From the NCBI RefSeq assembly GCF_012911005.2, contig NZ_WTVS01000016.1, positions 1-61,860 of the forward strand: a DNA stretch of 61,860 nt, read 5' to 3'. This document shows, one piece after another, positions 43,793 through 58,711 of the stretch (position 1 is its first letter; each line of letters starts with the position of its first letter). The notes under the pieces are model-generated. The model ran no database searches. It had not been told where the DNA came from and saw only the letters and a program-made list of their open reading frames with translations. The translations under genes were made by a program, and so were the position numbers. This DNA comes from Aromatoleum toluolicum. Its GTDB lineage: Bacteria; Pseudomonadota; Gammaproteobacteria; Burkholderiales; Rhodocyclaceae.

Positions 43793-44533
43793 TCAGTGTT
43801 CCGCAACGGCAGCCTCGCCGTGCATGACCACGAATTCCGACAGCGGCGCGCGCTCGGTCACGAGCGCGTTCTCGGGTGCGTCGGGGTCGCCGTAACCGAG
43901 CGCCATGCCGCACACCAGTTGCTCGTGCTCGTCAAAGCCGAGCACGTCGGAAATGACGCGGTGGTACGGAGTCCAGGCCGCCTGTGCGCAGGTGGAAAGC
44001 CCGCGTGCCTCGGCCGCCAGCATCACGTTCTGCAGGAACATGCCGTAATCGATCCAGCTGCCCTGCCCCAGGCGGCGGTCGATGGTAAAGATCAGGCCGA
44101 CCGGCGCATCGAAGAAGCGGAAGTTGCGCCGCGTCTGCACGCGCATCCGCTCGCGGTCGCTCTTCTCGATGCCGAGTCGGGCGTAGAGTCCCCAGCCGCT
44201 GCGGCGCCGCCTGCCCAGATACGGCTCGAAGAACTCGTCAGGGTAATAGGCGTACTCCGGCACATGGCTGTCGCCGCCCTCGTCGAAGGCGGCGCAGACG
44301 GCGCTCACCAGGGACTCGAGCTTCGCGCCGGCCACGACGTGCACCCGCCACGGCTGGATGTTGTTGCCAGACGGCGCGCGCGCGGCGATCCGCAGCACAT
44401 CCTCGATCGTGCCCGTATCGACGGTGACCGGCAGGAAGGCGCGTATCGAACGGCGACGCGAGATCAGCCAGTCGAGCGCCGCCTCGTCGCCGCCGAAGGA
44501 CACGACGGGATCCTCACGCACGCGCGCGTTCAT
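43793..44533 (-). CDS. Nitroreductase-family flavoprotein
   Basis: 246 aa from the ATG at 44533, overlapping the acyl-CoA dehydrogenase stop (ATGA). FMN-binding start RRRSIRAFLP and ARAPSGNNIQPWRVHVV, then SWIDYGMFLQNVMLAAEARGLSTCAQ split over the FMN/dimer region. The family reduces nitro groups, quinones or enoates, or fragments flavins. It is the last gene of the badH-badI-acyl-CoA dehydrogenase operon; no such enzyme is a known step in cyclohexanecarboxylate degradation, so its role there is open. Confidence 0.85.
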   Translation of the reverse strand: MNARVREDPVVSFGGDEAALDWLISRRRSIRAFLPVTVDTGTIEDVLRIAARAPSGNNIQPWRVHVVAGAKLESLVSAVCAAFDEGGDSHVPEYAYYPDEFFEPYLGRRRRSGWGLYARLGIEKSDRERMRVQTRRNFRFFDAPVGLIFTIDRRLGQGSWIDYGMFLQNVMLAAEARGLSTCAQAAWTPYHRVISDVLGFDEHEQLVCGMALGYGDPDAPENALVTERAPLSEFVVMHGEAAVAEH

Positions 44534-45684
44534 TCGCCGGCAGCCCGGATCATGTTGCGGGCGATCACAAGCTGCTGGATCTGGCTCGTGCCCTCGAAGA
44601 TGCGGAACAGACGCACGTCGCGATAGAAGCGCTCGATGCCGTATTCCGACAGGTAACCGGCGCCGCCGAAGATCTGCACGGCGCGATCGGCCACGCGGCA
44701 GCACATTTCCGAAGCGAAGAGCTTGGCGCAGGCCGCTTCCGTGCCGACATCGCGGCCGTCGTCGCGCTTGCGTGCCGCATCGACCACCATCGTGCGCGCG
44801 GCGTAGATCTCGGCCTTGCTGTCGGCGAGCATCGCCTGGATCAGCTGAAATTCCGCGATCGGCTTGCCGAACTGCTTGCGTTCCATCGCATACCGCAGCG
44901 CGTCTGCAAGCATGCGCTCTGCAACGCCGACGCAGATCGCGGCGATGTTGATGCGCCCCTTGTCGAGCACCTTCATCGCAGTCTTGAAGCCGACCTCTTC
45001 CTTGCCGCCGATCAGGTTCGAGGCCGGCACGCGGCAGTCTTCGAAAATCACGTCGCAGGTATGGGCGCCCTTCTGGCCCATCTTCTTGTCGATGTTGCCG
45101 AGCGACAGGCCCGGCGTACCCTTCTCGACGATGAACGCGGAGATGCCGTGCGGCCCCTTCGCGTCGGGATTCGTACGCGCCATCACCGTGAAGATGCCCG
45201 CTTCGGGCGCGTTGGTGATGTAGCGCTTGGTGCCGTTCAGCACGTAATGGTCGCCATCGCGGCGGGCGCTGGTGCGCAGGCTGCCGGCGTCCGAACCGGC
45301 ATCCGGCTCGGTGAGCGCGAAGGAGCCGATGATCTCGCCGGACGCGAGACGCGGCAGATAGTCGCGCTTCTGCTCGGGCGTACCGTCGATGACGATACCT
45401 TGGCCACCGATGCCGTTGTTCGTCGCGAACAGCGAACGGAAGCACGGCGAGGTCTGGCCGATCTCGAAAGTCGCGAGGACTTCCTCTTCCATCGTCAGAC
45501 CCATGCCGCCGAATTCCTCGGGAATCGACAGGCCGAACAGGCCCAGCTCCTTCATCTCGGCGACCAGTTCCGGCGGGATCTGGTCGGTCTCGGCGACGTG
45601 CGCCTCCTGCGGCACGAGGCGCTCGCGCACGAAGCGCGAGATCGTGTCGAGAAGAATGTTGAGTGTCTCCTGGTCGCGGATCAT
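44530..45684 (-). CDS. Acyl-CoA dehydrogenase in the badHI operon
   Basis: 384 aa. Typical flavin motifs FALTEPDAGSDAGS and YITNAPEAG, and the catalytic base Glu in RIFEGTSQIQ. It lies 103 bp after badI and overlaps the nitroreductase. After BadI makes pimeloyl-CoA, the next step is alpha-beta dehydrogenation, so a pimeloyl-CoA dehydrogenase role is a reasonable inference; cyclohexanecarboxyl-CoA dehydrogenation is the alternative, but AliB is encoded separately. Confidence 0.87.
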   Translation of the reverse strand: MIRDQETLNILLDTISRFVRERLVPQEAHVAETDQIPPELVAEMKELGLFGLSIPEEFGGMGLTMEEEVLATFEIGQTSPCFRSLFATNNGIGGQGIVIDGTPEQKRDYLPRLASGEIIGSFALTEPDAGSDAGSLRTSARRDGDHYVLNGTKRYITNAPEAGIFTVMARTNPDAKGPHGISAFIVEKGTPGLSLGNIDKKMGQKGAHTCDVIFEDCRVPASNLIGGKEEVGFKTAMKVLDKGRINIAAICVGVAERMLADALRYAMERKQFGKPIAEFQLIQAMLADSKAEIYAARTMVVDAARKRDDGRDVGTEAACAKLFASEMCCRVADRAVQIFGGAGYLSEYGIERFYRDVRLFRIFEGTSQIQQLVIARNMIRAAGE

Positions 45685-45787
45685 GTCGTGTTCCCTCTCC
45701 GATGCTGCGTTTTGTTTGTCAGGGTGATGCTAGGGGGACCTGCGCACCGCCCGGCCATCTGCCGGCCGGCGCGCGGTCCGCGGGTGC

Positions 45788-46570
45788 TTACTTCTGGTGC
45801 TTGCGGAACTCGGGCTTGCGCTTCTCGCGGAAGGCATTGCCGCCTTCGGCCGATTCGGCGGTCTCGTAGTAGAGCTTGAGCGCGTGCATTGCCAGGCCGC
45901 CCATGCCGCGGATCATTTCCGTATCGACGTTGAACGACTTCTTCGCCAGCGCGATCGCGGTCGGGCTCTTCTCGACGATCTCGTCGCACCACTTCTTCAC
46001 TTCGGCGTCGAGCTGGTCGTGCGGCACGACGGCGTTGACGAGGCCCATCGCGAGCGCTTCCTGCGCGTTGTAACGGCGGCACAGGTACCAGATTTCGCGC
46101 GCCTTCTTCTCGCCGACCACACGCGCCAGCAGCGCGGTGCCGAAGCCGGGGTCGACCGAGCCGACGCGCGGACCGGCCTGGCCGAGCTGGGCCTTGTCGG
46201 AGGCGATCGCGAGGTCGCAGATCGTCACGAGCACGTTGCCGCCGCCGATCGCAAAGCCGTTCACGCGAGCGATCACCGGCTTGGAGATGTCACGGATCGC
46301 GCTCTGCACTTCCTCGATCGGCAGGCCGATCACGCCGCGGCCACCGTAGCCGCCGTCCTGCGTACCTTGGTCACCGCCGGTGCAGAAGGCCTTGTCGCCG
46401 GCGCCGGTCAGCACGACTACGCCGATGCTGCGGTCGTAATCCGCATCCTTGAGCGCGTGGATCATTTCCTCGCAGGTCTGGGCGCGGAAGGCGTTGTACT
46501 GGGCGGGACGGTTGATCGTAACGGTCGCGATGCCGTCCTGCTTGGTGTAGAGAATGTCCTGGTATTCCAT
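45788..46570 (-). CDS. badI: 2-ketocyclohexanecarboxyl-CoA hydrolase BadI
   Basis: 260 aa. Crotonase family with features of BadI rather than a plain hydratase: KAFCTGGDQGTQDGGYGGRG, VNGFAIGGGNVLVTICDLAI and GQAGPRVGSVDPGFGTALLA, ending EKRKPEFRKHQK. The GGGNV in place of GGGCE marks loss of the hydratase glutamate. BadI hydrolytically opens the ring of 2-ketocyclohexane-1-carboxyl-CoA to pimeloyl-CoA. It is 34 bp downstream of badH, as in Rhodopseudomonas palustris. Confidence 0.92.
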   Translation of the reverse strand: MEYQDILYTKQDGIATVTINRPAQYNAFRAQTCEEMIHALKDADYDRSIGVVVLTGAGDKAFCTGGDQGTQDGGYGGRGVIGLPIEEVQSAIRDISKPVIARVNGFAIGGGNVLVTICDLAIASDKAQLGQAGPRVGSVDPGFGTALLARVVGEKKAREIWYLCRRYNAQEALAMGLVNAVVPHDQLDAEVKKWCDEIVEKSPTAIALAKKSFNVDTEMIRGMGGLAMHALKLYYETAESAEGGNAFREKRKPEFRKHQK

Positions 46571-46604
46571 GTTCTGCTCCTCGTCGTTGTCGTGAATTGG
46601 GTGC

Positions 46605-47372
46605 TTAGCCGGCCATCGTCAGGCCGCCCGACACGCTGATCACCTGACCGGTGATGAACGCGGCGTCGTCGCTGGCGAGGAAGGTCACGGCGCCAGCCAG
46701 GTCGCCCGGCTGGCCGAGACGGCCGAAGGGCACGGCGCGGGTGAAGGCGGTACGGAGCTTCTCGCCGCGCTCGCCTTCGCCGCAGATGTCATCCAGCAGC
46801 GGGGTGTCGGTCGGGCCGGGGCACACGACGTTGATGTTGATCTGCTGACGGGCGACTTCGCGCGCCAGCGTCTTCGAGAACGAGATCAGGCCGCCCTTGC
46901 AGAACGAATACACTGCCTCGCCCGACGAACCGACACGGCCGGCATCGGACGCGACGTTAATGACACGGCCGCGGCCGCGCTCGCGCATGCCCTTGACGAC
47001 CGCGTGATGCATGTACAGCGCGCCGTACAGGTTGATCGCGACGATCTTGTCCCACAGCGGCTTCTCGGTGTCGAGGAAGTTGCCGACCTTGTCCCAGCCG
47101 GCGTTGTTCACCAGCACGTCGATCGGGCCGAGTTCAGCTTCGGCGGCCGTTACGGCCGAGATCACCGAATCCTGGCTCGTCAGGTCGACCGCAAAGGCAC
47201 GCGCCTTGCCGCCGGCGGACTGGATTTCCGCTACAACGGCTTCGGCCGCTTCGCGGTTGATGTCGAACACCGCGACGCTCGCACGCTCCTCGCCGAAACG
47301 GCGGCAGATTGCGGAACCGATGCCGCCGGCGCCACCCGTCACGATCACGACCTTGCCTTCAAGACCTCTCAT
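46605..47372 (-). CDS. badH: 2-hydroxycyclohexanecarboxyl-CoA dehydrogenase BadH
   Basis: 255 aa. Classical SDR: GGAGGIGSAICRRF, NNAGWD, VASDAGRVGSSGEAVY with YSFCK, and PGPTDTPLLDDI. Oxidises 2-hydroxy- to 2-ketocyclohexanecarboxyl-CoA with NAD. First gene of the minus-strand badH-badI-dehydrogenase-nitroreductase operon, with GGAGG 5 bp upstream, and divergent from badR (99-bp gap). No exact CAA-N4-TTG is seen in that gap. Confidence 0.92.
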   Translation of the reverse strand: MRGLEGKVVIVTGGAGGIGSAICRRFGEERASVAVFDINREAAEAVVAEIQSAGGKARAFAVDLTSQDSVISAVTAAEAELGPIDVLVNNAGWDKVGNFLDTEKPLWDKIVAINLYGALYMHHAVVKGMRERGRGRVINVASDAGRVGSSGEAVYSFCKGGLISFSKTLAREVARQQININVVCPGPTDTPLLDDICGEGERGEKLRTAFTRAVPFGRLGQPGDLAGAVTFLASDDAAFITGQVISVSGGLTMAG

Positions 47373-47471
47373 TTCACTTCCTCCTGTTGGATAACCATCA
47401 ATCAGGCCCGTTGCGTCCGAGCCATGCTTTGCGCTTCAATGGGCGCCGTTCGAAACCAACCCGACGCCCCG

Positions 47472-47942
47472 ATGAAAGACCTTTCCGCTGCCAAGGACCT
47501 CGCCACAATGGAGATCAGCAACCGGCTGTTCTTCCGTTTCTTCCAGGCTGCGAACACGCTGCACACCAAGGGCACTCAGGCCCTCGACGAATTCGGCGTG
47601 ACGACGCAGCAATGGTCCGTACTCGGCGCGCTGTCCCGCCCGAAGGTCAAGGAGGGCATGGGCGTCGGCGAACTGTCGCGCTTCCTCCTCGTCAGCCGCC
47701 AGAACCTGTCGGGCATCCTCACCCGCCTTGAACGCGACGGCCTGATCGAGCGCGTCACCAGCGCCGAAGACCGTCGCTCGCGCAAGGTGAAGCTCACGCC
47801 CAAGGGCGAGGAACTGTGGGTCAAGCTCATCGACCCGATTCACACGTTCTACGACGAGGCGCTGAAAGGCTTCTCGTTCGACGACCGCTTGCAGTTCATC
47901 CATTACGTGAGCCTCCTGCAGCGCAACATGGCCAAGCTTTAG
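47472..47942 (+). CDS. badR: MarR-family regulator BadR
   Basis: 156 aa from the ATG at 47472 (MKDLSAAKDLATMEISN). Winged helix MarR core: TTQQWSVLGALSRP, SRQNLSGILTRLERDGLI and the wing SAEDRRSRKVKLTPKG. Divergent from badH, as badR is in known bad clusters. BadR represses bad-ali genes until a CoA ester of the pathway binds. From memory, the Aromatoleum BadR operator core is CAA-N4-TTG, which occurs in the aliA, aliB and livK promoters here and, with one mismatch, in livG. The stop codon overlaps that of aliB convergently. Confidence 0.88.
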   Translation: MKDLSAAKDLATMEISNRLFFRFFQAANTLHTKGTQALDEFGVTTQQWSVLGALSRPKVKEGMGVGELSRFLLVSRQNLSGILTRLERDGLIERVTSAEDRRSRKVKLTPKGEELWVKLIDPIHTFYDEALKGFSFDDRLQFIHYVSLLQRNMAKL

Positions 47943-49087
47943 ATCTCGTGCGCCGCGAGCTTCTCGCGGCCGATGATCATCTTCATGATGTTCGCGGTGC
48001 CGTCGCCGATCTGCAGACCCATCACGTCGCGATAGCGCTGACCGAAGTCGTAGTCGCTCGCGTAGCCGCCGTGGCCGTGCGTGAGCAGGCACTGGTGGAT
48101 GATTTCGCACGCCAGCTTGGGCGCCCACCATTTGCACATCGCCGCTTCCGCCGTGTGCTCGAGGCCCTGATCCTTCAGCCACAGCGTCTTCAGGCATAGC
48201 GCGCGACAGGCCTCGTACATCGTCTCCGCTTCGGCGAGCGGGAAAGTCACGCCCTGGAACTCGCCGATCTTCTTGCCGAAGGCCTCGCGTTCCTGCACGT
48301 AACGCCAGGTCTCATCGAGCGAGGCGCGCACCACACCCATGCACTGGATGCCGATGAGCGCTCGGCTGTAGTCGAAGCCCTGCATCACCTGCACGAAACC
48401 CTTGCCCTCGTCGCCGAGCATCATCTCGGCGGGCACGCGCACGTCGTCGAAGAAGATCGAGCCGCGGCCCACCGGGCGGGTGCCGATGTCGTCGAAAGCC
48501 GTGCGGGTGATACCCGGCAGATCCATCGGCACAAGGAAGGCGCTGATGCCGCGGGCACGATCGGCTTCGCTGCCGGTGCGGGCGAACACGACCGCCACAT
48601 CCGCCTGCGTCGCCATCGAGATCGAGGTCTTCTCGCCGTTGAGCACCCATACATCGCCGTCGCGCGTCGCCTTCAGTTTCAGGCGTGCCGCGTCGGAGCC
48701 GGCGCTGGGTTCGGTCAGCGCGATCGCGATCGACTTCTTGCCGGCGATGACCTGGCCCAGCCACTCCTTCGCAATTTGCGGCTGCGCGTAGTTCGCAACG
48801 ATCTGGCCGCACAGCGAGGTGAGCAGATTCACGTATGACACGTTGAAGTCGCCGTACGAGATCTGCTCCAGCAACAGGCCGCTGGTCAGGCAATCGACCC
48901 CCATACCGCCATGCTCCTCGGGCAGCTCGGGTCCGAGAAAGCCCAGCTCGCCCATCTCCCGAATCACTTCGCGCTCGATGCGCTCAGCCTTTTCGCGGGC
49001 TTTGTAACCGGGAGCGAGACGCTCACGGGCGAAACGGCTTGCGGTATCGACGAGCGCCTGCTGCTCGGGACTGAGACTGAAATCCAT
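47939..49087 (-). CDS. aliB: Cyclohexanecarboxyl-CoA dehydrogenase AliB
   Basis: 382 aa. Acyl-CoA dehydrogenase fold: IALTEPSAGSDAARLKL, VLNGEKTSISMATQAD, GFDYSRALIGIQCMG. Where most family members have the catalytic Glu (FEGTS), this protein has IGDGTANI, i.e. Asp; cyclohexanecarboxyl-CoA dehydrogenases are known to deviate in their catalytic base. Forms cyclohex-1-ene-1-carboxyl-CoA. GGAGGAG upstream; divergent from aliA with a strong promoter overlapping a BadR-type operator. Confidence 0.88.
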   Translation of the reverse strand: MDFSLSPEQQALVDTASRFARERLAPGYKAREKAERIEREVIREMGELGFLGPELPEEHGGMGVDCLTSGLLLEQISYGDFNVSYVNLLTSLCGQIVANYAQPQIAKEWLGQVIAGKKSIAIALTEPSAGSDAARLKLKATRDGDVWVLNGEKTSISMATQADVAVVFARTGSEADRARGISAFLVPMDLPGITRTAFDDIGTRPVGRGSIFFDDVRVPAEMMLGDEGKGFVQVMQGFDYSRALIGIQCMGVVRASLDETWRYVQEREAFGKKIGEFQGVTFPLAEAETMYEACRALCLKTLWLKDQGLEHTAEAAMCKWWAPKLACEIIHQCLLTHGHGGYASDYDFGQRYRDVMGLQIGDGTANIMKMIIGREKLAAHEI

Positions 49088-49115: not shown

Positions 49116-49152
49116 ATTCTAGGAAGAGTCGAGCTTTTCTGTCAATACATTG
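49116..49152 (-). promoter_or_regulatory. aliB promoter with BadR-type operator
   Basis: Minus strand: -35 TTGACA (49140-49145), 18-bp spacer, -10 TAGAAT (49116-49121). The operator core CAATGTATTG (49143-49152) overlaps the -35 and is an exact CAA-N4-TTG. Spacer length and -10 are identical to those of livG. Confidence 0.7.
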
Positions 49153-49287
49153 CTATTTCTTTTTTTAGGTTGGCGAAGAGAGGGATCGTCGCAAATATTC
49201 CTTCAATGCTGCGCGGCCTTGCTGTGCAGATGATGTAACGAAATTCTGCGACCAACCGCACGCTGCTTTCCACATGCGCCGTTGTGC

Positions 49288-49323
49288 CAACCTATTGACT
49301 TGCTTTCGCAAAGGTAATAGCTT
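49288..49323 (+). promoter_or_regulatory. aliA promoter with BadR-type operator
   Basis: CAACCTATTG (49288-49297), an exact CAA-N4-TTG, overlaps -35 TTGACT (49295-49300); 17 bp later TAGCTT (49318-49323) is a weak -10. The 14-bp string CAACCTATTGACTT recurs exactly in the livK promoter with the same spacing. Confidence 0.65.
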
Positions 49324-49359
49324 TGCGACGCCGTCGGTGAAGGCCGGAGGCGAACATCA

Positions 49360-49479
49360 ATGAGCGAGACGCGCCCCGGCAAGCCGGGCGCAACGGGCAC
49401 TGCCGAACCGCATTTCCACATCGACGCGTCGCCGTCGTCGCTGTGGCCGAAGCGCTGCCGTCTCGCAAGACGCCATTAA
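49360..49479 (+). CDS. Possible 39-aa leader ORF before aliA
   Basis: 39 codons, beginning MSETRPGKPGATG and ending in a basic KRCRLARRH. A strong ribosome site GGAGG lies 9 bp before the ATG, and third positions are GC-rich. It follows the aliA promoter and ends 45 bp before the aliA start. It could be a regulatory leader, a true small protein or chance; no known family is recognised. Confidence 0.35.
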   Translation: MSETRPGKPGATGTAEPHFHIDASPSSLWPKRCRLARRH

Positions 49480-49524
49480 GGGTTATTCGCGGGCCAAGCC
49501 CCCGCCAAGAGAGGAGAGAAGACG

Positions 49525-51153
49525 ATGAATTTCGACCCGGTGCTGATCGCCGACCGCATGACAACGATGAAGGCCGCAGGCCTGTGGCGCGACGAGACGA
49601 TCGACGTGTATTTCCAGCGCGCGCTGGAAAACTGCCCCGACAAGCTGGCCGTGGTCGCGTACCGCGACGGTCAGGCCGAACCGGTCCGTCTCAGCTATCG
49701 CGAACTCGACCAACGCGTCGACCGCATCGCCCGCGGCCTCGTGGCGCTGGGCGTCGGCCGCAGCGACGTCGTGAGCTTCCAGCTGCCCAACCGCTGGGAA
49801 TTCGTGGCGCTTTCGCTCGCCTGCGCGCGCATCGGCGCGGCAGCGAACCCGGTGATGCCGATCTTCCGTCAGCACGAACTCAGCTACATGCTGAACTTCG
49901 CCGAGACCAAGGTCTTCATCGTCCCGAACGTGTTCCGCAAGTTCGACCACGCGGCGATGGCGCGCGAACTGCAGCCCAAACTGCCCAACCTGAAGCAGGT
50001 TGTCGTCGTGGACGGCGACGGTGAAGACAGCTTCGATCGCGTGCTCATGCGCGACGACACGCCGCCGCTTGCCGGCCCTGGCCTCGGACCCGACGACGTG
50101 TCGCTCCTCATGTACACGTCCGGCACGACGGGCGAGCCCAAGGGCGTGATGCACACCTCGAACACGCTCTTCTCGAATCTGCACGCGTACATCGCGACGA
50201 TGGAGCTGAGCGCTTCGGACGTCGTCCTCGGCGCGTCGCCGATGGCGCACCTCACCGGCTATGGCTACCTCGCGATGCTGCCGCTGATCCTGAACTCGAC
50301 GACCGTGCTGCAGGAGATCTGGGACGCCGCGCGTGCGCTGGAGATCGTGCGTGACGAGGGCGTAACCTTCAGCATGGCGTCGGCCGCCTTCATCTCCGAC
50401 ATGTGTGCAGCGGTCGAAGCGGGCGCTCCGGTGTCGCCGCAATTCACCAAGTTCAACTGCGCCGGCGCACCCATCCCGCCGGTAACGATCCAGCGCGCCT
50501 GGGACATGATGGGGCTGCGCGTGTGCTCGGCCTGGGGCATGACCGAATGCGGCGCGGTCACGATCACCGAACCTGCCCGTGCGCTCGAGAAGTCGGGCGT
50601 CTCCGACGGTCGCGCCCTGCCCGGCATCGAGGTCCGCATCATCGACTCGAACGGCGACGAGGTACCCACTGGCGAGACGGGCGAACTGCTGATCCGTGGC
50701 TCGTCGCTGTTCGCCGGTTACCTCAAGCGTCCCCAGCTGAACAGCGTTGACGCGAATGGCTGGTTCGACACCGGCGACCTCGCCTTCCAGGACGCCGAGG
50801 GCTACATCCGCATCAACGGCCGCAGCAAGGACATCGTGATCCGCGGCGGCGAGAACATCCCGGTCGTCGAGATCGAGAACCTGCTCTACCGTCACCCGTC
50901 CATCACCACCGTCGCAGTCGTCGGCTACCCCGATCGCCGCCTTGGCGAGCGCGTGTGCGCCTTCGTCTCGCTGAAACCCGGCTGCACGCTGACTTTCGAG
51001 GATCTCACGGCTTATCTCGACAAGCAGCAGGTCGCCAAGCAGTACTACCCGGAGCGCCTGGAGATCGTCGAAGACCTGCCCCGCACGCCGGCCGGCAAGC
51101 TACAGAAGTTCAAGCTGCGCGAAACCGCCAAGTCCTTCGGCAACGACCAGTGA
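49525..51153 (+). CDS. aliA: Cyclohexanecarboxylate-CoA ligase AliA
   Basis: 542 aa, GAGGAG upstream. AMP-forming acyl-CoA synthetase: P-loop MYTSGTTGEPKGVMHT, SAWGMTECGAVT, GWFDTGDLAF, GRSKDIVIRGGENI and the terminal catalytic Lys in RTPAGKLQKFKLR. Activates cyclohexanecarboxylate to its CoA ester with ATP, the entry step and the source of the BadR inducer. First gene of aliA-badK-MaoC. The terminal Lys is a plausible acetylation target of a Pat-type enzyme such as the one at 16.4 kb. Confidence 0.9.
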   Translation: MNFDPVLIADRMTTMKAAGLWRDETIDVYFQRALENCPDKLAVVAYRDGQAEPVRLSYRELDQRVDRIARGLVALGVGRSDVVSFQLPNRWEFVALSLACARIGAAANPVMPIFRQHELSYMLNFAETKVFIVPNVFRKFDHAAMARELQPKLPNLKQVVVVDGDGEDSFDRVLMRDDTPPLAGPGLGPDDVSLLMYTSGTTGEPKGVMHTSNTLFSNLHAYIATMELSASDVVLGASPMAHLTGYGYLAMLPLILNSTTVLQEIWDAARALEIVRDEGVTFSMASAAFISDMCAAVEAGAPVSPQFTKFNCAGAPIPPVTIQRAWDMMGLRVCSAWGMTECGAVTITEPARALEKSGVSDGRALPGIEVRIIDSNGDEVPTGETGELLIRGSSLFAGYLKRPQLNSVDANGWFDTGDLAFQDAEGYIRINGRSKDIVIRGGENIPVVEIENLLYRHPSITTVAVVGYPDRRLGERVCAFVSLKPGCTLTFEDLTAYLDKQQVAKQYYPERLEIVEDLPRTPAGKLQKFKLRETAKSFGNDQ

Positions 51154-51173
51154 TGGTGACGGGAGACGACACG

Positions 51174-51947
51174 ATGACTTCGGTAATCCTCACTGAAACG
51201 CGCGGCAAGGTCGGGCTCATCCGCATCAACCGCCCGGAAGTGTTCAACGCCCTCAATGACGACGTGATGACCGGGATCGGCCAGGCGCTCGACCGCTTCG
51301 AAGCCGACCCCGGCATCGCCTGCGTCGTCGTGACAGGCTCCGAAAAGGCCTTCGCCGCCGGCGCGGACATTGCCGCGATGCGCGAGATGGACTACATGGA
51401 CGCGTACAAGTCCGATTTCATCACACGCAACTGGGAGCGTCTCAAGACCTTCCGCAAGCCGACCATCGCCGCCGTCTCGGGCGTCGCGCTGGGTGGCGGT
51501 TGCGAGCTCGCGATGATGTGCGACATCGTCTTCGCGGCGGAAAATGCCCGCTTCGGCCAGCCGGAGATCAAGATCGGCACGATCCCCGGTGCAGGCGGCA
51601 CGCAGCGCCTGCCGCGTGCCGTGGGCAAGACCAAGGCGATGGACCTGTGCCTGACCGGCCGTCTGATGGACGCGCAGGAAGCGGAGCGCAGCGGCCTGGT
51701 CGCGCGCATCTATCCGCCCGAGAGCGTGCTCGACGAGGCGCTCGCGGCAGCAGCGAAGATCGCGGAGTTCTCACTTCCCGTCCTCATGATGATGAAGGAA
51801 ACGGTGAACCGCGCCTTCGAAGGCCCGCTCAACGAAGGCCTGCTGTTCGAGCGTCGCACGTTGCACGCGACCTTCGGGCTGGCGGACCAGAAGGAAGGCA
51901 TGGCGGCCTTCGTCGACAAGCGCCGCCCGCAGTTCGCCGACCGTTGA
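51174..51947 (+). CDS. badK: Cyclohex-1-ene-1-carboxyl-CoA hydratase BadK
   Basis: 257 aa from the ATG at 51174 with GGGAG 8 bp upstream; an ATG at 51153 overlaps the aliA stop but lacks a site. Crotonase fold: FAAGADIAAMREMDY, GGGCELAMMCDIVF and FGQPEIKIGTIPGAGG, so both hydratase glutamates are kept, and SDFITRNWERLKTFRKP resembles BadK. Adds water to give 2-hydroxycyclohexanecarboxyl-CoA. Confidence 0.88.
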   Translation: MTSVILTETRGKVGLIRINRPEVFNALNDDVMTGIGQALDRFEADPGIACVVVTGSEKAFAAGADIAAMREMDYMDAYKSDFITRNWERLKTFRKPTIAAVSGVALGGGCELAMMCDIVFAAENARFGQPEIKIGTIPGAGGTQRLPRAVGKTKAMDLCLTGRLMDAQEAERSGLVARIYPPESVLDEALAAAAKIAEFSLPVLMMMKETVNRAFEGPLNEGLLFERRTLHATFGLADQKEGMAAFVDKRRPQFADR

Positions 51948-51948
51948 A

Positions 51949-52866
51949 ATGATGTCCAACCGCGCAGGCGACGCGACGACCGGCGACGCAGCCGGATTCG
52001 CCGTGTGCGCCGACGCCGACCGGCTGCGGCGATTTGCCGCGGCCATCGGCGAAACGACGCCGCTGTACGTGGATGAGGACGCGGCACGGCGGGCGGGCTA
52101 CCGCTCGCTCCCGCTGCCGCCCTCGTTCCTGTTCGGTCTTGCACTCGAACCCGGCGAACCCTTCCCATGGTTCGCCAGCGTCGGCCTCGACCTGCCGCGC
52201 GTGCTGCACGGCGAGCAGACCTTCACCTATCACGCCGTGCCCTGCGCGGGCGAGCGGCTGCATGTCCAGCCGCGCATCAGCGCCATCTACGACAAACCCG
52301 AGCGCGGCCTGCGCTTCGTGGTGCGCGACATCCGCATCACGAGCGAGCTGGGCGCGCCGGTCGCAGATTTGCACAGCATCTTCATCCAGCCCGACCCGGC
52401 ACGCGATCTCGCGCCGCCCAAGGCTGCACCGTCCACCCGCTTATCTGCAACCGCTGCGGAAGCCGGGCGAGAGCCGCAGTCGGCCTCCGCGTGGCAGGCC
52501 GAGTTGCGCCTGCCCCCGATCACGCGCGCGACACTCGCGGATTTCGCCACGGCTTCGGGCGACCTAAACCCGATCCACCTCGATCCCGAGTTTGCGCGCA
52601 GCGTGGGCTTCGACGACGTCTTCGCCCAGGGCATGCTGAGCATGGCCTATCTCGGCCGGTTGCTGACCGGCCAGGTGCCGCAGGAGCGGCTCCGCCAGTT
52701 CCGCGTCCGCTTCACCGGTCGCACGCTCCTGGGCGAGGCGCCGATCTGCACCGGCACGGCGCTACCGGCCGACGATCCGCTGGAGCAGCGGATCGTCCTG
52801 CGCGTGACTAATCAGGCCGGCGAGGAAAGGCTCTCCGGCGAGGCTATCGTTTCCGCCTCGCGGTAA
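51949..52866 (+). CDS. Two-domain MaoC-like (double hotdog) hydratase
   Basis: 305 aa; start at 51949 or 51952, one base after the badK stop. The N-terminal half is a degenerate FAS1-like/MaoC-N hotdog; the C-terminal half is a MaoC domain with the hydratase-2 motif ASGDLNPIHLD (Asp and His four residues apart) and FDDVFAQGMLSM. This is an R-enoyl-CoA hydratase architecture. The characterised CHC pathway to pimeloyl-CoA does not need it, because BadK already hydrates. It might act on a later enoyl-CoA or on a related alicyclic substrate. Confidence 0.83.
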   Translation: MMSNRAGDATTGDAAGFAVCADADRLRRFAAAIGETTPLYVDEDAARRAGYRSLPLPPSFLFGLALEPGEPFPWFASVGLDLPRVLHGEQTFTYHAVPCAGERLHVQPRISAIYDKPERGLRFVVRDIRITSELGAPVADLHSIFIQPDPARDLAPPKAAPSTRLSATAAEAGREPQSASAWQAELRLPPITRATLADFATASGDLNPIHLDPEFARSVGFDDVFAQGMLSMAYLGRLLTGQVPQERLRQFRVRFTGRTLLGEAPICTGTALPADDPLEQRIVLRVTNQAGEERLSGEAIVSASR

Positions 52867-53049
52867 CCAACGCACACGGGCCGGCGCCGAACGGGCCGGT
52901 TCCGAGCGCATCCCCAGCGCTCGGCCCGATGGAAAACTCACTGGGCGCCCCCTGCCCGGCTCCCGGCCGCCCGCGCGCAACTCGCCCATCACATTTCCTC
53001 CGCTGACAGTGCGCTCACACCGGAAGGATTCCGCCCACGCCGCACGCAA

Positions 53050-53088
53050 AAGGAAACACCGGCTCGGCGCATCAACGCCGAGCCGGTG
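53050..53088 (-). terminator. Rho-independent terminator of the liv operon
   Basis: A perfect 13-bp stem CACCGGCTCGGCG / CGCCGAGCCGGTG (53057-53069 with 53076-53088), 6-nt loop. On the minus strand it is followed by TTTCCTTTT. It ends the livGFHM transcript. Confidence 0.8.
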
Positions 53089-53167
53089 AAAACTCCGGCG
53101 AGTCCGTAGGGAGGGAGAAGCGTGAACCGCGCCGGAGGCGGGCGAAGCGCCCGCAAGAGAAACCGCC
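53050..53167 (-). ncRNA. Structured 3-prime UTR element, copy B (candidate RNA)
   Basis: Same layout as copy A at 43671-43792: stem 1 GCGGGCG/CGCCCGC (53138-53144 with 53148-53154), stem 2 CTCCGG 53093-53098 with CCGGAG 53132-53137, then the terminator. Conserved blocks include ACTCCGGCGAGT and CCGGAGGCGGGC. The adjoining 52867-53049 (after the MaoC gene) holds no gene; it has two ACGGGCCGG direct repeats near 52880 of no clear role. Confidence 0.5.
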
Positions 53168-54109
53168 TCAGCCGACCTTCTCGCCGATCATGCGGCGATA
53201 CAGCGCGATACCCTCGCCGACGATGCCGCGGCGGAACGCCAGCACGCAGACGACGAAGATCGCGCCCATGATGACGGTCACCAGCGAGCCCGCGACCACG
53301 GCGAGCTCATTCTGAAGCGTGACGATGAGTGCCGCACCGACGACAGGCCCGAACACCGTGCCCATCCCGCCCAGCAGCGTCATCAGGACGACCTCGCCGG
53401 ACATGTGCCAGTGGGCGTCGCCGAGCGTCGCGAAGTTGAACACCAGCGTCTTGGTCGCACCGGCGAGCCCGGCCAGCGCCGCCGACAGCACGAAGGCGAT
53501 CAGCTTGTAGCGGGCTACGTCGTAGCCGAGCGACACGACGCGCGGCTCGTTCTCGCGGATGGCTTTCAGGATCTGCCCGAACGGGGAGTCGATCGTACGG
53601 CGGATCAGCCAGAACGCACCCACGAAAAGGGCAACGACGAGGTAGTACAGCGCGTAGTCGTTCGTGAGATCGATCCCGAACAGCGTGCCGCGCGGCACGC
53701 CTTGCAGGCCGTCATCCCCATGCGTGAAAGGTGCCTGCATCAGCACGAAGAACACGAGCTGCGCCAGCGCGAGGGTGACCATCGCGAAGTAGATGCCCTG
53801 CCGACGGATCGCGAGGCTGCCGATCACCCAGCCCAGGGCCGCCGCCCCCACCGTGCCAAGGATGAGGCCGACGAGCGTGGGAACCTCCCACACCTTGAGC
53901 GCGTGGCCGGTCAGGTACGCGGCAGTACCGAGGAAGGCCGCGTGGCCGAACGACAGCAGCCCGGTGAAGCCCAGCAGCAGGTTGAACGCGCAGGCGAACA
54001 GCGCGAAGCACAGCACCTTCATCACAAGCACGGGGTAGACGACCGCAGGGGCGACGAGCAGCAGCGCCACCCCGGCGACGCTCGGCCAGGAAAGCTTGGT
54101 CCGCATCAT
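53168..54109 (-). CDS. livM: Branched-chain-type ABC transporter permease LivM
   Basis: 313 aa from the ATG at 54109, overlapping the livH stop. About eight to ten hydrophobic helices; family landmarks FNLLLGFTGLLSFGHAAF, ATLGDAHWHMSGEVVLMTLLGG split at the domain boundary and RENEPRVVSLGYDV, the coupling region. Pairs with LivH. Last gene of livG-livF-livH-livM. Transports branched-chain amino acids or, in this family, aromatic/alicyclic acids. Confidence 0.88.
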   Translation of the reverse strand: MMRTKLSWPSVAGVALLLVAPAVVYPVLVMKVLCFALFACAFNLLLGFTGLLSFGHAAFLGTAAYLTGHALKVWEVPTLVGLILGTVGAAALGWVIGSLAIRRQGIYFAMVTLALAQLVFFVLMQAPFTHGDDGLQGVPRGTLFGIDLTNDYALYYLVVALFVGAFWLIRRTIDSPFGQILKAIRENEPRVVSLGYDVARYKLIAFVLSAALAGLAGATKTLVFNFATLGDAHWHMSGEVVLMTLLGGMGTVFGPVVGAALIVTLQNELAVVAGSLVTVIMGAIFVVCVLAFRRGIVGEGIALYRRMIGEKVG

Positions 54110-54993
54110 TTTTCTCTCCCGAAGAGTCCCGCGGGGCGGAACATCAGAACAATTGCCATTGCGATGAACACCACGGTCGAGGCGGCCTCCGCGTAGAACA
54201 CCTTGGTGAGCCCCTCGACGAGGCCGAGCCCGAGGCCGGTCACGACCGAGCCGAGAATCGAGCCCATGCCGCCGATGACGACCACCGCGAACACGACGAT
54301 CAGCAGGTTGGAGCCCATCAGCGGACCGACCTGCGTGGTCGGCGCCGCGAGCACGCCGGCGAGACCCGCGAGGCCGACGCTGAAGCCATAGGTGAGCAGC
54401 ACCATCAGCGGCACGTTGATGCCGAGCGCCTGGGTCAGCTTGGCGTTCTCGGTCGCAGCGCGCAGGTAGGCACCCAGCCGCGTCTTCTCGATCATGTACC
54501 AGGTGAACAGGCACACCGCGAGCGACGCAACGATGACCCATGCGCGGTACTTCGGCAGGAACATGAAGCCGAGGTCCAGTGCCCCCGTGAGCTGGCTCGG
54601 AACCGCGTACGGCTGGCCGGCGGCGCCGTACAGGTGGCGGAAGAGGCCTTCGATCATCAGCGCCAGGCCGAAGGTCAGCAGCAGGCCGTACAGGTGGTCG
54701 AGTTTGTACACATGGCGCAGCAGCACGCGCTCGATGAGGATGCCGATGAGGCCGACCCCCACCGGAGCGAGGAGCAGCGACCACCAGTAGCCGACCCCCG
54801 TGTACTCGAGCAGCATCCACGTAAACATCGCGCCCATCATGTAGAGCGCACCGTGGGTGAAGTTGATGATGTTGAGCATGCCGAAGATCACCGCGAGCCC
54901 GAGGCTCAGCACGGCATAGAACGAACCGTTGACCAGGCCCAGCACGAGCTGGCCCATCAATGCCTGCAATGGAACACCGAAAATCTCAGTCAT
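54106..54993 (-). CDS. livH: Branched-chain-type ABC transporter permease LivH
   Basis: 295 aa from the ATG at 54993 (AGGAG upstream); an ATG at 55029 adds 12 residues. Features LGLAVIFGMLNIINFTHGAL, ATENAKLTQALGINVPL and VIGGMGSILGSVVTG are diagnostic. Its stop overlaps the livM start (ATGA), so the two permease chains are translated together. Confidence 0.9.
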   Translation of the reverse strand: MTEIFGVPLQALMGQLVLGLVNGSFYAVLSLGLAVIFGMLNIINFTHGALYMMGAMFTWMLLEYTGVGYWWSLLLAPVGVGLIGILIERVLLRHVYKLDHLYGLLLTFGLALMIEGLFRHLYGAAGQPYAVPSQLTGALDLGFMFLPKYRAWVIVASLAVCLFTWYMIEKTRLGAYLRAATENAKLTQALGINVPLMVLLTYGFSVGLAGLAGVLAAPTTQVGPLMGSNLLIVVFAVVVIGGMGSILGSVVTGLGLGLVEGLTKVFYAEAASTVVFIAMAIVLMFRPAGLFGREK

Positions 54994-55051
54994 GGGGCGA
55001 CACTCCTGAATTGGGCGACGGGGCCGCACACGGGCGGCATTGCGATCGTCT

Positions 55052-55759
55052 TCATACGCCGAGCAGCTCCTGCAGCATGTCCTTGCGCTGGCGCAGCTCG
55101 TGCTGTGCGATCTCGGCGACGATCTGGCCGTGTTCCACGACCAGCATCCGATCCGCGAGCGGCGCGGCGAAGCGGAAGTTCTGCTCGACGAGCAGGACCG
55201 TGTAGTCGCGCTGCTTGAGCTCGCGGATGACGTCGGCGAGCTTCTGCACGATCACCGGCGCGAGGCCTTCGGAGATCTCGTCGAGCAGCAGCAGGCGCGC
55301 GCCGGTGCGCAGGATCCGCGCGAGCGCCAGCATCTGCTGTTCGCCGCCGGAGAGCTTCGTCCCCTGGCTGTGGCGCCGTTCCCACAGGTTCGGGAACATC
55401 GCGTAGATCTCGTCGACGCTCATGCCCCCGCTTCCGACCACGGGCGGCAGCAGCAGGTTTTCTTCCGTGCTGAGCCCGGCGTAGATGCCGCGCTCCTCGG
55501 GGCAATAGCCCACGCCAAGCTGCGTGATCCTGTGCGGGGGAAGATTGATCGCTTCACGCCCGTTGAGCATGATCGAGCCCGTGCGCTTGCCCGTCAGCCC
55601 CATGATCGCTCGCAGGGTCGTGGTCCGTCCTGCGCCGTTGCGGCCGAGAAGGGTCACGCATTCGCCCCGCCTGACGGTGAAGTCGATGCCGTGCAGGATG
55701 TGCGACTCGCCGTAGAAGGCGTGCAGGTCCGATACCCGCAGATATTCTGTCGGGCTCAT
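55052..55759 (-). CDS. livF: ABC transporter ATP-binding protein LivF with Arg in Walker A
   Basis: 235 aa. Walker A reads LLGRNGAGRTTTL: the invariant Lys is Arg at residue 45 (codon CGG at 55625-55627). The rest is intact: signature LSGGEQQMLALAR, Walker B RLLLLDEISEGLAP with its Glu, and a final His region. The LivG partner keeps GAGKTT. The start overlaps the livG stop (ATGA). Either one ATP site is degenerate, as in asymmetric ABC pairs, or there is a sequence error. Confidence 0.88.
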   Translation of the reverse strand: MSPTEYLRVSDLHAFYGESHILHGIDFTVRRGECVTLLGRNGAGRTTTLRAIMGLTGKRTGSIMLNGREAINLPPHRITQLGVGYCPEERGIYAGLSTEENLLLPPVVGSGGMSVDEIYAMFPNLWERRHSQGTKLSGGEQQMLALARILRTGARLLLLDEISEGLAPVIVQKLADVIRELKQRDYTVLLVEQNFRFAAPLADRMLVVEHGQIVAEIAQHELRQRKDMLQELLGV

Positions 55760-56607
55760 GACACCACCTCCGTCGCGGGGACCCGCGTACTCGTCGCTTG
55801 CGTCGGCTCCTCGCCGAACAGGTCTTCGGATTCGGCCCCCATGTAGGCCTCGATCACTGCAGGGTTCGCCGACACCGTCGCATAGTCGCCCTCCGCGAGG
55901 ACTGCGCCGCGCGCGAGAACCGTGATGCGATCGCAGATGCCCGCGACGACCTTCATGTTGTGTTCGACCATCAGGATGGTGCGGTTCGCAGAGACCTGCT
56001 TGATCAGCTCCATCACGCGATCAACGTCCTCGTGCCCCATGCCCTGCGTCGGTTCGTCGAGCAGCATCAGTTCGGGGTCGAGCGCCAGCGTGGTCGCGAG
56101 TTCAAGCGCCCGCTTGCGCCCGTAGGGCAGTTCCACGGCGACCATCGTCGCGAATTTCTCGAGGCCGACCGACTCGAGCAGCTCCATCGCCCGGGCATCC
56201 AGACTGTCGAGCGTGCGGCCCGACTTCCAGAAGTGGAAGCTTGTTCCCAGTTCCCGCTGCAGCGCGACGCGGACGTTGTCGCGCACGCTCAGGTGCGGAA
56301 ACACCGACGATATCTGGAACGAGCGCACCATGCCGCGGCGTGCGACCGCCTGGGGGGCTGCCCGAGTGATGTCCTCGCCCTTGAAGCGGATCGTGCCGCG
56401 GGTGGGTTCGAGAAACTTCGTCAGCAGGTTGAAGCAGGTCGTCTTGCCGGCGCCGTTGGGGCCGATCAGCGCATGGATATGGCCGCGCCGGACGGTCAGG
56501 TCGACGCCATTGACGGCGATGAAACCGCGGAACTCCTTGACGAGTCCTCGCGTTTCGAGAATCGGCGGCGGATCGTGCGCGTCACCGGGTAATGGTTGGC
56601 CTTGCAT
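55756..56607 (-). CDS. livG: ABC transporter ATP-binding protein LivG
   Basis: 283 aa. Walker A IGPNGAGKTTCFN, Walker B LMLLDEPTQGMGH and switch His in ILMVEHNMKV. The usual LSGG signature is not evident: the segment before Walker B reads VAVELPYGRKRALELATTLALDP, where LPYGRKR takes its place (livG proteins often have LSYGQQR-type variants). First gene of the operon, preceded by a promoter with a BadR-like operator. Confidence 0.88.
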   Translation of the reverse strand: MQGQPLPGDAHDPPPILETRGLVKEFRGFIAVNGVDLTVRRGHIHALIGPNGAGKTTCFNLLTKFLEPTRGTIRFKGEDITRAAPQAVARRGMVRSFQISSVFPHLSVRDNVRVALQRELGTSFHFWKSGRTLDSLDARAMELLESVGLEKFATMVAVELPYGRKRALELATTLALDPELMLLDEPTQGMGHEDVDRVMELIKQVSANRTILMVEHNMKVVAGICDRITVLARGAVLAEGDYATVSANPAVIEAYMGAESEDLFGEEPTQATSTRVPATEVVS

Positions 56608-56712
56608 CTTTCGGGTCTCCTCCGAGTTGGGATCGTTATTGGCCGGTTTGCCGCGCGATTTTTCATTTCACGGTGGCGCAACAATTAATTGCGCTTCGGC
56701 CTGGTTAAATTA

Positions 56713-56749
56713 ATTCTATGGAGCGAGCGGACAGTACGTCAATACATTT
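56713..56749 (-). promoter_or_regulatory. livG promoter with BadR-like operator
   Basis: Minus strand: -35 TTGACG (56737-56742), 18-bp spacer, -10 TAGAAT (56713-56718). The overlapping operator reads AAATGTATTG (56740-56749), one base from CAA-N4-TTG. ATGTATTGAC is shared with the aliB promoter. Confidence 0.65.
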
Positions 56750-56883
56750 ACTCATCAGCGCAATTTCAAGCTGGACGCAGGAATTCGCCGAATCCATTTA
56801 ATAGCCCACGCTTACTAATAAATACGGGGTTCTTGAAGTACCAATGACCGGCGGTATCCTGCACTCAATAGAGAACTTTGTAT

Positions 56884-56919
56884 CAACCTATTGACTTACT
56901 TACCCCAGAAAGTTAGCGT
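56884..56919 (+). promoter_or_regulatory. livK promoter with BadR-type operator
   Basis: CAACCTATTG (56884-56893), an exact CAA-N4-TTG, overlaps -35 TTGACT (56891-56896); TAGCGT (56914-56919) follows after 17 bp. CAACCTATTGACTT is identical to the aliA promoter. The 361-bp livG-livK gap holds this, the livG promoter and no gene. Confidence 0.65.
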
Positions 56920-56968
56920 TACCCCATCCCGTGCGAACCGATGCGGGCATCAAACAAAGGAGAGAGAC

Positions 56969-58237
56969 ATGCACTCGAATCGAACGGCAGCGAACGCAGC
57001 CGGAAAGCCTGCGAACCGCCGCCGCAACGTCCTGGCCGCGAGCCTTGCGGCCTTGGCTGTGACGTCGGCACCGGCGGTCCTGGCGCAGCAGAAGATCAGC
57101 GATGACGTGGTCAAGGTAGGGGTGCTCACGGACATGTCCGGCATCTACTCCGACTTCACCGGCACCGCCTCGGCCATCGCCGCGCAGATGGCAGTCGAGG
57201 ATTTCTCCAAGGACGCCACGGTGCATGGCAAGAAGATCGAAGTCGTCAGCGCCGATCACCAGAACAAGGCCGATATCGGCGCCGAGCGCGCGCGCGCGTG
57301 GTTCGACCGCGACAAGGTCGATGTCATCGTCGAACTGGTGAACACCAGCGTCGCGCTGGCGGTGATGGACGTCGCGGCCCAGAAGAACAAGCTCGCGCTG
57401 GTCTCGGGCGCTGCCTCGCTGCCGATTACCAACGAGCGCTGCAACGCGAACACCGTGCACTGGGTATACGACTCGTATGGCCTCGCCTCCGGCACCGCTA
57501 AGGCCGTGGTTGGCTCGGGCAAGAAGAACTGGTTCTTCATTGCGGCCGACTATGCGGCGGGCGCGGCGATGACCAACGATGCAAGCCGCGTCGTCACCGC
57601 GAACGGCGGCAAGGTCGTCGGCGTCGCAAAGCATCCCTTCCCGACCGCTGACTTCTCGTCCTTCCTGCTGACCGCGCAAAGCTCCAAGGCCGACGTCATC
57701 GCACTCGCCAACGGCGGGCAGGACACGATCACCGCGATCAAGCAGGCCGCCGAGTTCGGCATCACCGGCTCGAAGCAGACCATCGTGCCGATCGTGCTGT
57801 TCATCAACGACGTTCACGCGCTGGGGCTGAAGACCGCCCAGGGCCTGACGCTGACCGAAGGCTTCTACTGGAACCGCGACGCAAAGACGCGTGCCTGGGC
57901 GCGCCGCTTCTTCGAGAAGACGAAGAAGATGCCGAGCATGGCCCAAGCCGGCGTCTATTCGTCCACGCTAAATTTCCTGAAGGCGGTCGAGAAGACCGGC
58001 ACGGACGACGCCGCGACGGTCATGAAGTATCTCAAGTCGAACGAGATCGACGACGGTCTCTTCAAAGGCAAGATTCGCGCCGACGGCAAGTTCGCCCACG
58101 ACATGCTGCTGCTAGAAGTCAAGAAGCCCGCCGAATCGACCGAGCCGTGGGACTACTACCACGTCCGCGGCATCATCCCCGCCGAGGACGCTGCCCTGCC
58201 GCTCAGCGAATCGAGGTGCAGCCTGGTCAAGCGCTAA
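56969..58237 (+). CDS. livK: Periplasmic binding protein of the branched-chain-type ABC transporter
   Basis: 422 aa from the ATG at 56969 (AAGGAG upstream). A long signal peptide (charged RRR at about 18-20, hydrophobic to about 38, ending VLAQ) precedes a type I periplasmic-binding fold: VKVGVLTDMSGIYSDFTG, VVSADHQNKADIGAERAR, IAADYAAGAAMTNDA. Captures the solute for LivHMGF. Ligand unknown; the shared operator with aliA suggests cyclohexanecarboxylate or another pathway acid rather than leucine. Confidence 0.88.
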   Translation: MHSNRTAANAAGKPANRRRNVLAASLAALAVTSAPAVLAQQKISDDVVKVGVLTDMSGIYSDFTGTASAIAAQMAVEDFSKDATVHGKKIEVVSADHQNKADIGAERARAWFDRDKVDVIVELVNTSVALAVMDVAAQKNKLALVSGAASLPITNERCNANTVHWVYDSYGLASGTAKAVVGSGKKNWFFIAADYAAGAAMTNDASRVVTANGGKVVGVAKHPFPTADFSSFLLTAQSSKADVIALANGGQDTITAIKQAAEFGITGSKQTIVPIVLFINDVHALGLKTAQGLTLTEGFYWNRDAKTRAWARRFFEKTKKMPSMAQAGVYSSTLNFLKAVEKTGTDDAATVMKYLKSNEIDDGLFKGKIRADGKFAHDMLLLEVKKPAESTEPWDYYHVRGIIPAEDAALPLSESRCSLVKR

Positions 58238-58353
58238 GCTCGAACCTCGTCACGGCGCGCCTCGACGCCTCGCGCCTGCCCACCATCGCCGCCGTCCCGG
58301 ACATCGCACCGGGGCGGGCGTTTGGCGGCACGGGATTGGATACGTACCTGGGG

Positions 58354-58668
58354 CGACCGTCGTTCATGCCCCTTTTCGTGGCACTGAAACCGGGGGTCAC
58401 CCTGGACCAGGCCTTGGTCGAACGTATCCGACAACAAATTCGCACCAAGGCCTCGGGTCGCCATGTGCCTGACCCAGTGGTCCAGGTGAGCGAGATTCCG
58501 CATACGCTGACTGGCACGAAGATGGAGGTGCCGGTGCGCAAGCCTCTCTTGGGCGCGGACCCCGGCAATGTGGCCAGTCCGGATGCAATGCAGAACCCCG
58601 CCAGCCTGGAATTCTTTGTCGAGTACGCCAAGACCATCGAACGCCCTGATAGCCGATGGTTCGCGGAG
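58354..58668 (+). pseudogene. 3-prime remnant of an acetoacetyl-CoA synthetase gene
   Basis: About 100 residues in one frame match only the C-terminal end of acetoacetate-CoA ligases: FMPLFVALKPGVTLDQAL, then RHVPDPVVQVSEIPHTLTG and KMEVPVRKPLLG including the catalytic Lys region, and DAMQNPASLEFFVEYAK. The other ~550 residues, including the ATP-binding domain, are missing, and no start fits. It lies just after livK; the stretch 58238-58353 has no recognisable content. Probably debris of a deletion or rearrangement. Confidence 0.75.
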
Positions 58669-58711
58669 GGAGCCTCCGTGCGGGGGCCCTCGTCGCGCCC
58701 CGCTCCCGTCC

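Follow-up and report, generated by a model that had tools for sequence, protein, structure and literature searches.

Shared BadR-type operators suggest that a Liv-type importer is controlled together with the bad-ali pathway in Aromatoleum toluolicum

The stretch of DNA considered here, a window of 61,860 nucleotides from Aromatoleum toluolicum (contig NZ_WTVS01000016.1), carries a bad-ali gene cluster for cyclohexanecarboxylate (CHC) and the genes livKGFHM of a Liv-type (HAAT) ATP-binding cassette (ABC) importer, whose promoters share an operator with those of the cluster. Two of the bad-ali enzymes exceed the cut-offs of their equivalog models: aliB (47939..49087, minus strand) encodes a cyclohexanecarboxyl-coenzyme A (CoA) dehydrogenase (TIGR03207, 732 bits, cut-off 575) and aliA (49525..51153, plus strand) a cyclohexanecarboxylate-CoA ligase (TIGR03208, 973 bits, cut-off 792). 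On the plus strand lies badK (51183..51947), in the gene order of the relatives and named after PMC9795900, and downstream of aliB on the minus strand lie badH, badI and an acyl-CoA dehydrogenase gene in the place of aabA (together 44530..47372), the last named by its position from the same source. The gene badR (47424..47942, plus strand), with orthologues in relatives, codes for a MarR-type repressor (MarR_2) and is located antisense between badH and aliB. The order of the whole cluster is that found in relatives, and AliA is 87-96% identical to its counterparts in seven named genomes (six Aromatoleum, one Azoarcus sp.), the remaining five of 12 loci showing 27-38%.

The importer genes comprise, according to Pfam, one periplasmic binding protein of the Peripla_BP_6 family (livK, 56969..58237, plus strand) and, on the minus strand, two ATPases (livG, 55756..56607; livF, 55052..55759) and two BPD_transp_2 permeases (livH, 54106..54993; livM, 53168..54115, with an uncertain start codon). 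They belong to a block (52909..58695) that is absent at the matching place in a close relative, G015, to which homology stops near 52908 and resumes near 58696. Inside the block, between livK and a gene which we take to be of the DUF1615 type (no family was matched), a C-terminal remnant of an acetoacetate--CoA ligase has been found (58231..58677, plus strand; positions 559-654 of 657 in profile NF002937), which is a sign of block movement. From the remnant and the absence in G015 it follows that the block has either moved or been lost in G015. A location on a plasmid has been rejected, as a search of plasmid proteins (256 records) returned none with at least 60% identity.

BadR of Aromatoleum sp. 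CIB binds CAATnnATTG at the aliB promoter, PaliB, as defined by gel shifts, and represses PaliB in E. coli, where relief by CHC needs AliA (Sanz and Diaz 2022, PMC9795900); the operator core CAAN4TTG, as given in an earlier note on this DNA, is therefore correct. That note had also proposed that this operator overlaps the -35 box of four promoters, PaliB, PaliA, PlivG and PlivK, which both direct reading and matrix ranking confirm. PaliB (49116..49152, minus strand) reads CAATGTATTGACA-18-TAGAAT, in which the operator CAATGTATTG (49143-49152), the same as that gel-shifted in CIB (PMC9795900), overlaps the -35 box TTGACA and is followed by an 18-bp spacer and the -10 box TAGAAT (49116-49121). 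PlivG (56713..56749, minus strand) is built alike, AAATGTATTGACG-18-TAGAAT, with the operator AAATGTATTG (56740-56749), the -35 box TTGACG, an 18-bp spacer and the -10 box TAGAAT (56713-56718); its operator carries one mismatch to CAAN4TTG, at the first base. PaliA (49288..49323) and PlivK (56884..56919), both on the plus strand, read CAACCTATTGACT-17-TAGCTT and CAACCTATTGACT-17-TAGCGT, respectively, and have in common the operator CAACCTATTG (49288-49297 and 56884-56893), the -35 box TTGACT and a 17-bp spacer, the -10 boxes being TAGCTT (49318-49323) and TAGCGT (56914-56919); the PlivK operator is an exact CAAN4TTG. A second operator, absent from the earlier note, is present in the livG leader (56682..56691) as a perfect CAATTAATTG, 58 bp downstream of the PlivG operator and roughly at +15 to +24 from the inferred start. 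Both liv promoters thus carry the BadR-type operator on their -35 boxes, PlivG with one mismatch and the additional leader site, in a window that also holds badR. The gap between badH and badR is indeed without an exact site, as had been stated, but this is not odd, since 38 of 39 bad-ali loci, the window included, likewise lack one.

The core CAAN4TTG alone is common: the window holds nine copies against 5.4 +/- 2.4 expected, and 11 of 100 shuffles reach nine. In the 6.16-Mb genome, the sequence CAATNNATTG is found at 20 positions, of which two lie inside the aliB/aliA and livG/livK intergenic regions, and the pattern TATTGAC-N18/19-TAG gives 15 rows genome-wide. Four of these rows are the promoters described here, and two pairs among the 15 each represent a single site seen on both of two redundant contigs, C1 and C220. 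Of 20,000 shuffles of the AT-rich liv intergenic region, 176 contained CAATNNATTG, 86 contained at least two CAAN4TTG and a single one contained the full promoter pattern, either strand being accepted. A matrix was derived from 36 hand-picked elements of 21 of the 24 aliB/aliA regions of relatives, using no liv promoter and leaving out the window, G242 and G202 (near copies of G109a) and the right-hand element of six of the 21 regions; its -10 hexamer was picked as the best fit to TAGAAT, so that this motif is favoured. Scored with this matrix, the four promoters top the window at 36.4, 29.6, 29.1 and 26.6, followed by 15.5, and simulated sequence totalling 24 Mb, scored on one strand, yielded no score of 26.6 or above. 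Likewise, 24 other liv loci (368,906 bases in all; two belong to the same genome and 22 to others; 20 of them hand-picked from the family and order search lists) contain no score of at least 20, the maximum being 18.0. A chance similarity of sigma-70-type promoters, to which the frequency of CAAN4TTG and one unrelated site of the same genome scoring 27.0 could point, has been rejected on the matrix ranking, the 24 control loci and the spacing between operators, and its probability is considered negligible. As a separate observation, an operator-like palindrome, CAAACTATTGAC-GGTCAATAGTTTG with TAGAAT, recurs on the contigs C1, C220 and C240 of this genome, either as part of a multi-copy element or because contigs are redundant.

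The distribution of livK has been followed in a sample of 395 genomes of the family. A LivK with at least 74% identity is present in ten, and all ten have BadR, which overall occurs in 42; the probability of such an overlap at random is ~6e-11, as calculated by hand with relatedness ignored. Eight of the ten genomes have livK directly divergent from aliB (type A; in G363 the contig ends after livK). In the window and in G257 the livG/livK pair stands apart (type B), and that of G257 is located on a different contig from bad-ali. At all seven type-A loci with both sides visible, livK runs into aliA-badK with a gap of 12-38 nt, and the aliB gene set is followed, in the same orientation, by livG, F, H and M, all present, with livG 44-110 nt behind the dehydrogenase gene (both gaps between alignment ends). 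Because aliB-badH-badI-aabA are co-transcribed in CIB (PMC9795900), livGFHM of type A are probably read from PaliB. Among the seven named loci, A. anaerobium (L016) alone has livK between aliB and aliA, with livGFHM after the acyl-CoA dehydrogenase following badI; in the other six, no liv gene lies within the stretch examined.

An operator element has been found at all ten livK promoters. Six match CAAN4TTG exactly and four have A in place of the first C, the weakest being that of G293 with a score of 20.0. Conservation of the motif upstream of liv genes in relatives had been set beforehand as a test, its absence being named as a refutation, which the ten sites contradict, and the proposed comparison of loci in other bad-ali genomes also turns out in favour of BadR control, with livK at the aliB divergent promoter in eight of ten genomes and the importer genes arranged around aliA and the aliB set at seven of seven loci. 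Bad-ali loci retaining the stretch upstream of aliB show a matrix match there; the four loci with no match are G379 and G196 (both showing no aliB in the stretch), G109b (no genuine bad-ali locus, with BadR at 46% and aliB missing) and G100 (ending 67 bases beyond aliB). In three relatives (L080 near 3985, L083 near 4603, L139 near 18342), BadR-type elements with scores of 25-27 lie just upstream of a gene for a BadK-like enoyl-CoA hydratase (45-46%), so that the regulon may reach the lower pathway there.

That two promoter architectures are each used twice in the window has been put forward as far beyond chance; this stands, the matrix supporting it. The doubled architecture is best explained by descent from one ancestral divergent promoter rather than by independent recruitment of the liv promoters, the livG/livK region looking like a copy of an aliB/livK one. 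Intergenic regions with both genes within 900 bp were compared, 34 in total (24 aliB/aliA, 8 aliB/livK, 2 livG/livK), and loci that were truncated at a contig end or lacked the pair were excluded (G314, G054, G266, G111, G379, G080, G100, G191, G196, G109b, G003, G070). The two operators lie 139-154 bp apart in 30 of the 34, the exceptions being G073, G055 and G008, without a right element, and G040 with 489 bp. A helical phasing of the two operators has been rejected and no phased loop is argued, because the range of 139-154 bp exceeds one helical turn. The liv spacing of the window, 144, equals that of aliB/livK in G001 (144), and the liv spacing of G257, 150, is close to those of G282 (150) and G293 (151) of the same genus. 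The livK start lies 85 bp from its operator in the window, against 83 bp in G001, and aliA of the window lies 237 bp from its operator. The livG/livK region of G257 still holds an aliB start (26 residues, 77% identical to the AliB of G257 itself) and, from the second acyl-CoA dehydrogenase gene, the 3' end (25 residues, 68%), and these relics match both corresponding places of other loci at the DNA level; its liv promoter is therefore an aliB/livK promoter after internal loss. Compared with aliB/livK of G001, the promoter elements of the window's liv region show 25/37 and 24/37 identities and the middle 44/134. Trees of LivK, LivF and LivG pair the window with G001 (supports 87/93, 94/94 and 83/92; the AliB tree was made from 21 selected rows). 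For the window itself, we infer promoter copying from spacing, leader length, element identity and trees. A transfer of liv from another genus is unsupported by these trees, in which the window joins G001 with moderate support, though the block is absent from G015. The best explanation is that the importer has long belonged to the bad-ali locus in the family, has often been lost from it, and in the window appears as a detached block.

Taken together, we consider it probable that livKGFHM form a Liv-type ABC importer that works for the bad-ali pathway and, like the pathway genes, is under BadR, as the earlier note had proposed; the gene order and the sites of the relatives back this interpretation, and control of liv by BadR is likely on that basis. 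Binding of BadR at the liv sites, the nature of the substrate and co-transcription in the relatives are points that we infer from sequence. Several findings weigh against such a role. The PlivG mismatch affects a base called essential by the CIB data (PMC9795900, where it is unstated whether one or both half-sites were altered). The same A is present at 16 of 32 aliB promoters, and therefore the mismatch may be tolerated; the first base of the PlivG operator is the weak point, PlivK being free of such a problem. The site scoring 27.0, a different palindrome in a repeated element (C1/C220), came from a scan of part of the genome (196,852 bases with overlaps) and ranks just above PlivK, and the livK-side element of G293 falls narrowly short of a cut-off of 20. 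This LivK occurs in only two of 17 genomes of the genus; no LivK with at least 74% identity was found outside the family among 399 genomes sampled from the order, and LivK of 66-68% occurs in six genomes of 1.7-2.1 Mb from another family, of which G727, the only one with flanks examined, has no bad-ali gene nearby. An aliB relic was searched for in the window's own livG leader and not found. The liv elements are also about as close to the window's own ali elements (23/37 and 26/37, with 43/134 between) as to those of G001, so the elements do not settle the source of the copy. A promoter region related by descent, the PlivG mismatch and a rearranged island with a gene remnant would all fit liv operators that are leftovers of ali-derived promoters, BadR control having been lost in this strain. 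We regard such a loss as unlikely, as the elements are better kept than the middle of the region, the -35 boxes, -10 boxes and operator cores are intact, and an extra perfect operator stands in the livG leader.

As to what is transported, LivK (structure model pLDDT 86) has its closest solved relatives in PDB 3I09 (53% identity) and 3N0W (41%), found by structure match, and lower-ranked structure matches include R. palustris proteins solved with hydroxybenzoate ligands. All curated branched-chain-amino-acid Liv models remain below their cut-offs for the window genes, so the importer is of Liv type, yet the models do not class it with the amino-acid importers. In fold and annotation it matches Liv systems, which would suit an importer of branched-chain amino acids lying near bad-ali incidentally. 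This is very improbable in view of these models, the co-occurrence with BadR in ten of ten genomes, the adjacency of livK to aliA and of the dehydrogenase gene to livG at seven of seven loci, and the lack of such an operator at the 24 other liv loci; moreover, 37 tested R. palustris binding proteins bound compounds that their sequence did not predict (PMC3223731). An acyl-CoA ligase gene adjoins seven of 23 non-ali liv loci, one being the source of the query; a ligase beside every liv cluster is therefore ruled out, and ligase adjacency lends weak support to acid import. Elsewhere in this genome, C177 (L091 6276-13056) carries a second livGFKHM operon with a LivK of 57%, directly behind an acyl-CoA ligase gene, and 16 of the 17 genomes from the genus, among them the present one, have a LivK of 54-58% identity. 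At L078 (G003), where aliB is missing, Liv genes (54-73%) adjoin badK/badI/badH-like genes, a CoA ligase gene and a MarR gene (46%), an arrangement that may represent a different alicyclic pathway with a separate importer. L191 (G054) and L200 (G068) have LivGFHM 78-84% identical to those of the window with a LivK of only about 50-58%, where the binding protein has perhaps been exchanged on one transporter core.

Since the importer has the same switch as the neighbouring pathway genes and is aligned with them in several relatives, it probably brings in CHC or a close relative; import of CHC or a related acid is plausible from its gene partners. A further difficulty is that CHC enters cells without this importer: CIB grows on 3 mM CHC although its aliA-aliB region, at 440 bp, is too short to accommodate livK, and an E. 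coli biosensor without the importer responded to 0.1 uM CHC (PMC9795900). Consequently, the importer would most likely act when CHC is scarce, or carry a relative of CHC that crosses membranes less readily. The same CIB and biosensor data could also indicate that liv is under BadR, but serves another acid (hydroxylated or unsaturated alicyclic, aromatic or dicarboxylate) feeding AliA or the lower pathway. This alternative, possible though clearly less probable, is also favoured by RPA0668 of R. palustris, encoded between the bad and hba operons, which binds benzoate and 4-hydroxybenzoate (PMC3223731). It likewise draws on two residues, A197 and G249, fixed in the ten bad-ali LivKs and replaced by F and A in all 19 chosen outgroup LivKs. 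By the secondary structure of the LivK model, both lie at strand-helix turns, which in such binding proteins usually line the cleft, a hint that they may belong to the binding pocket. Against another acid speak the course of livK straight into aliA at seven of seven loci with both genes visible and the CIB AliA/BadR pair in E. coli, which responds strongly to CHC, little to benzoate and not significantly to dicarboxylates (PMC9795900).

In the proposed scheme, BadR would, in the absence of substrate, occupy the -35-overlapping operators of PaliB, PaliA, PlivG and PlivK as well as the operator in the livG leader and block RNA polymerase. Upon entry of CHC or a close analogue, AliA would form the CoA thioester, BadR would then release, and enzymes and importer would rise together in a feed-forward loop. 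We lean, by a small degree, towards the wider proposal that LivKGFHM of this clade is a dedicated high-affinity importer of alicyclic carboxylates, ancestral and often lost, which would have kept its regulon by taking a copy of the divergent promoter, so that pairs of operators would mark the break-up of an operon. A Liv clade that would be annotated as amino-acid importers thereby gains a specific candidate substrate and regulator, and the relic in G257 together with the matching operator spacings suggests how a transporter can leave an operon and yet keep its control.

In the open-access literature searched, enzymes and repressor of the bad-ali pathway are known and no importer is described for it. 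Among solved structures, the nearest relatives of LivK, 3I09 and 3N0W, are Burkholderia periplasmic binding proteins whose titles name no ligand. HbaEFGHI of R. palustris (RPA0668) is, like the liv system of the window, a Liv-type ABC importer clustered with a bad operon (PMC3223731), but it has aromatic ligands, its binding protein is about 20% identical to the window's LivK (structure match 4evq), and the passages on it make no mention of BadR sites. The closest counterpart is the BadR regulon of CIB (PMC9795900), which shares with the window a MarR-type badR antisense in the aliB-badH-badI unit, divergent aliB/aliA promoters and CAAN4TTG on the -35 boxes. The main text of that report contains no words beginning with 'transport', 'ABC' or 'liv'; unlike the CIB regulon as published there, the window has a Liv importer with the same operators.

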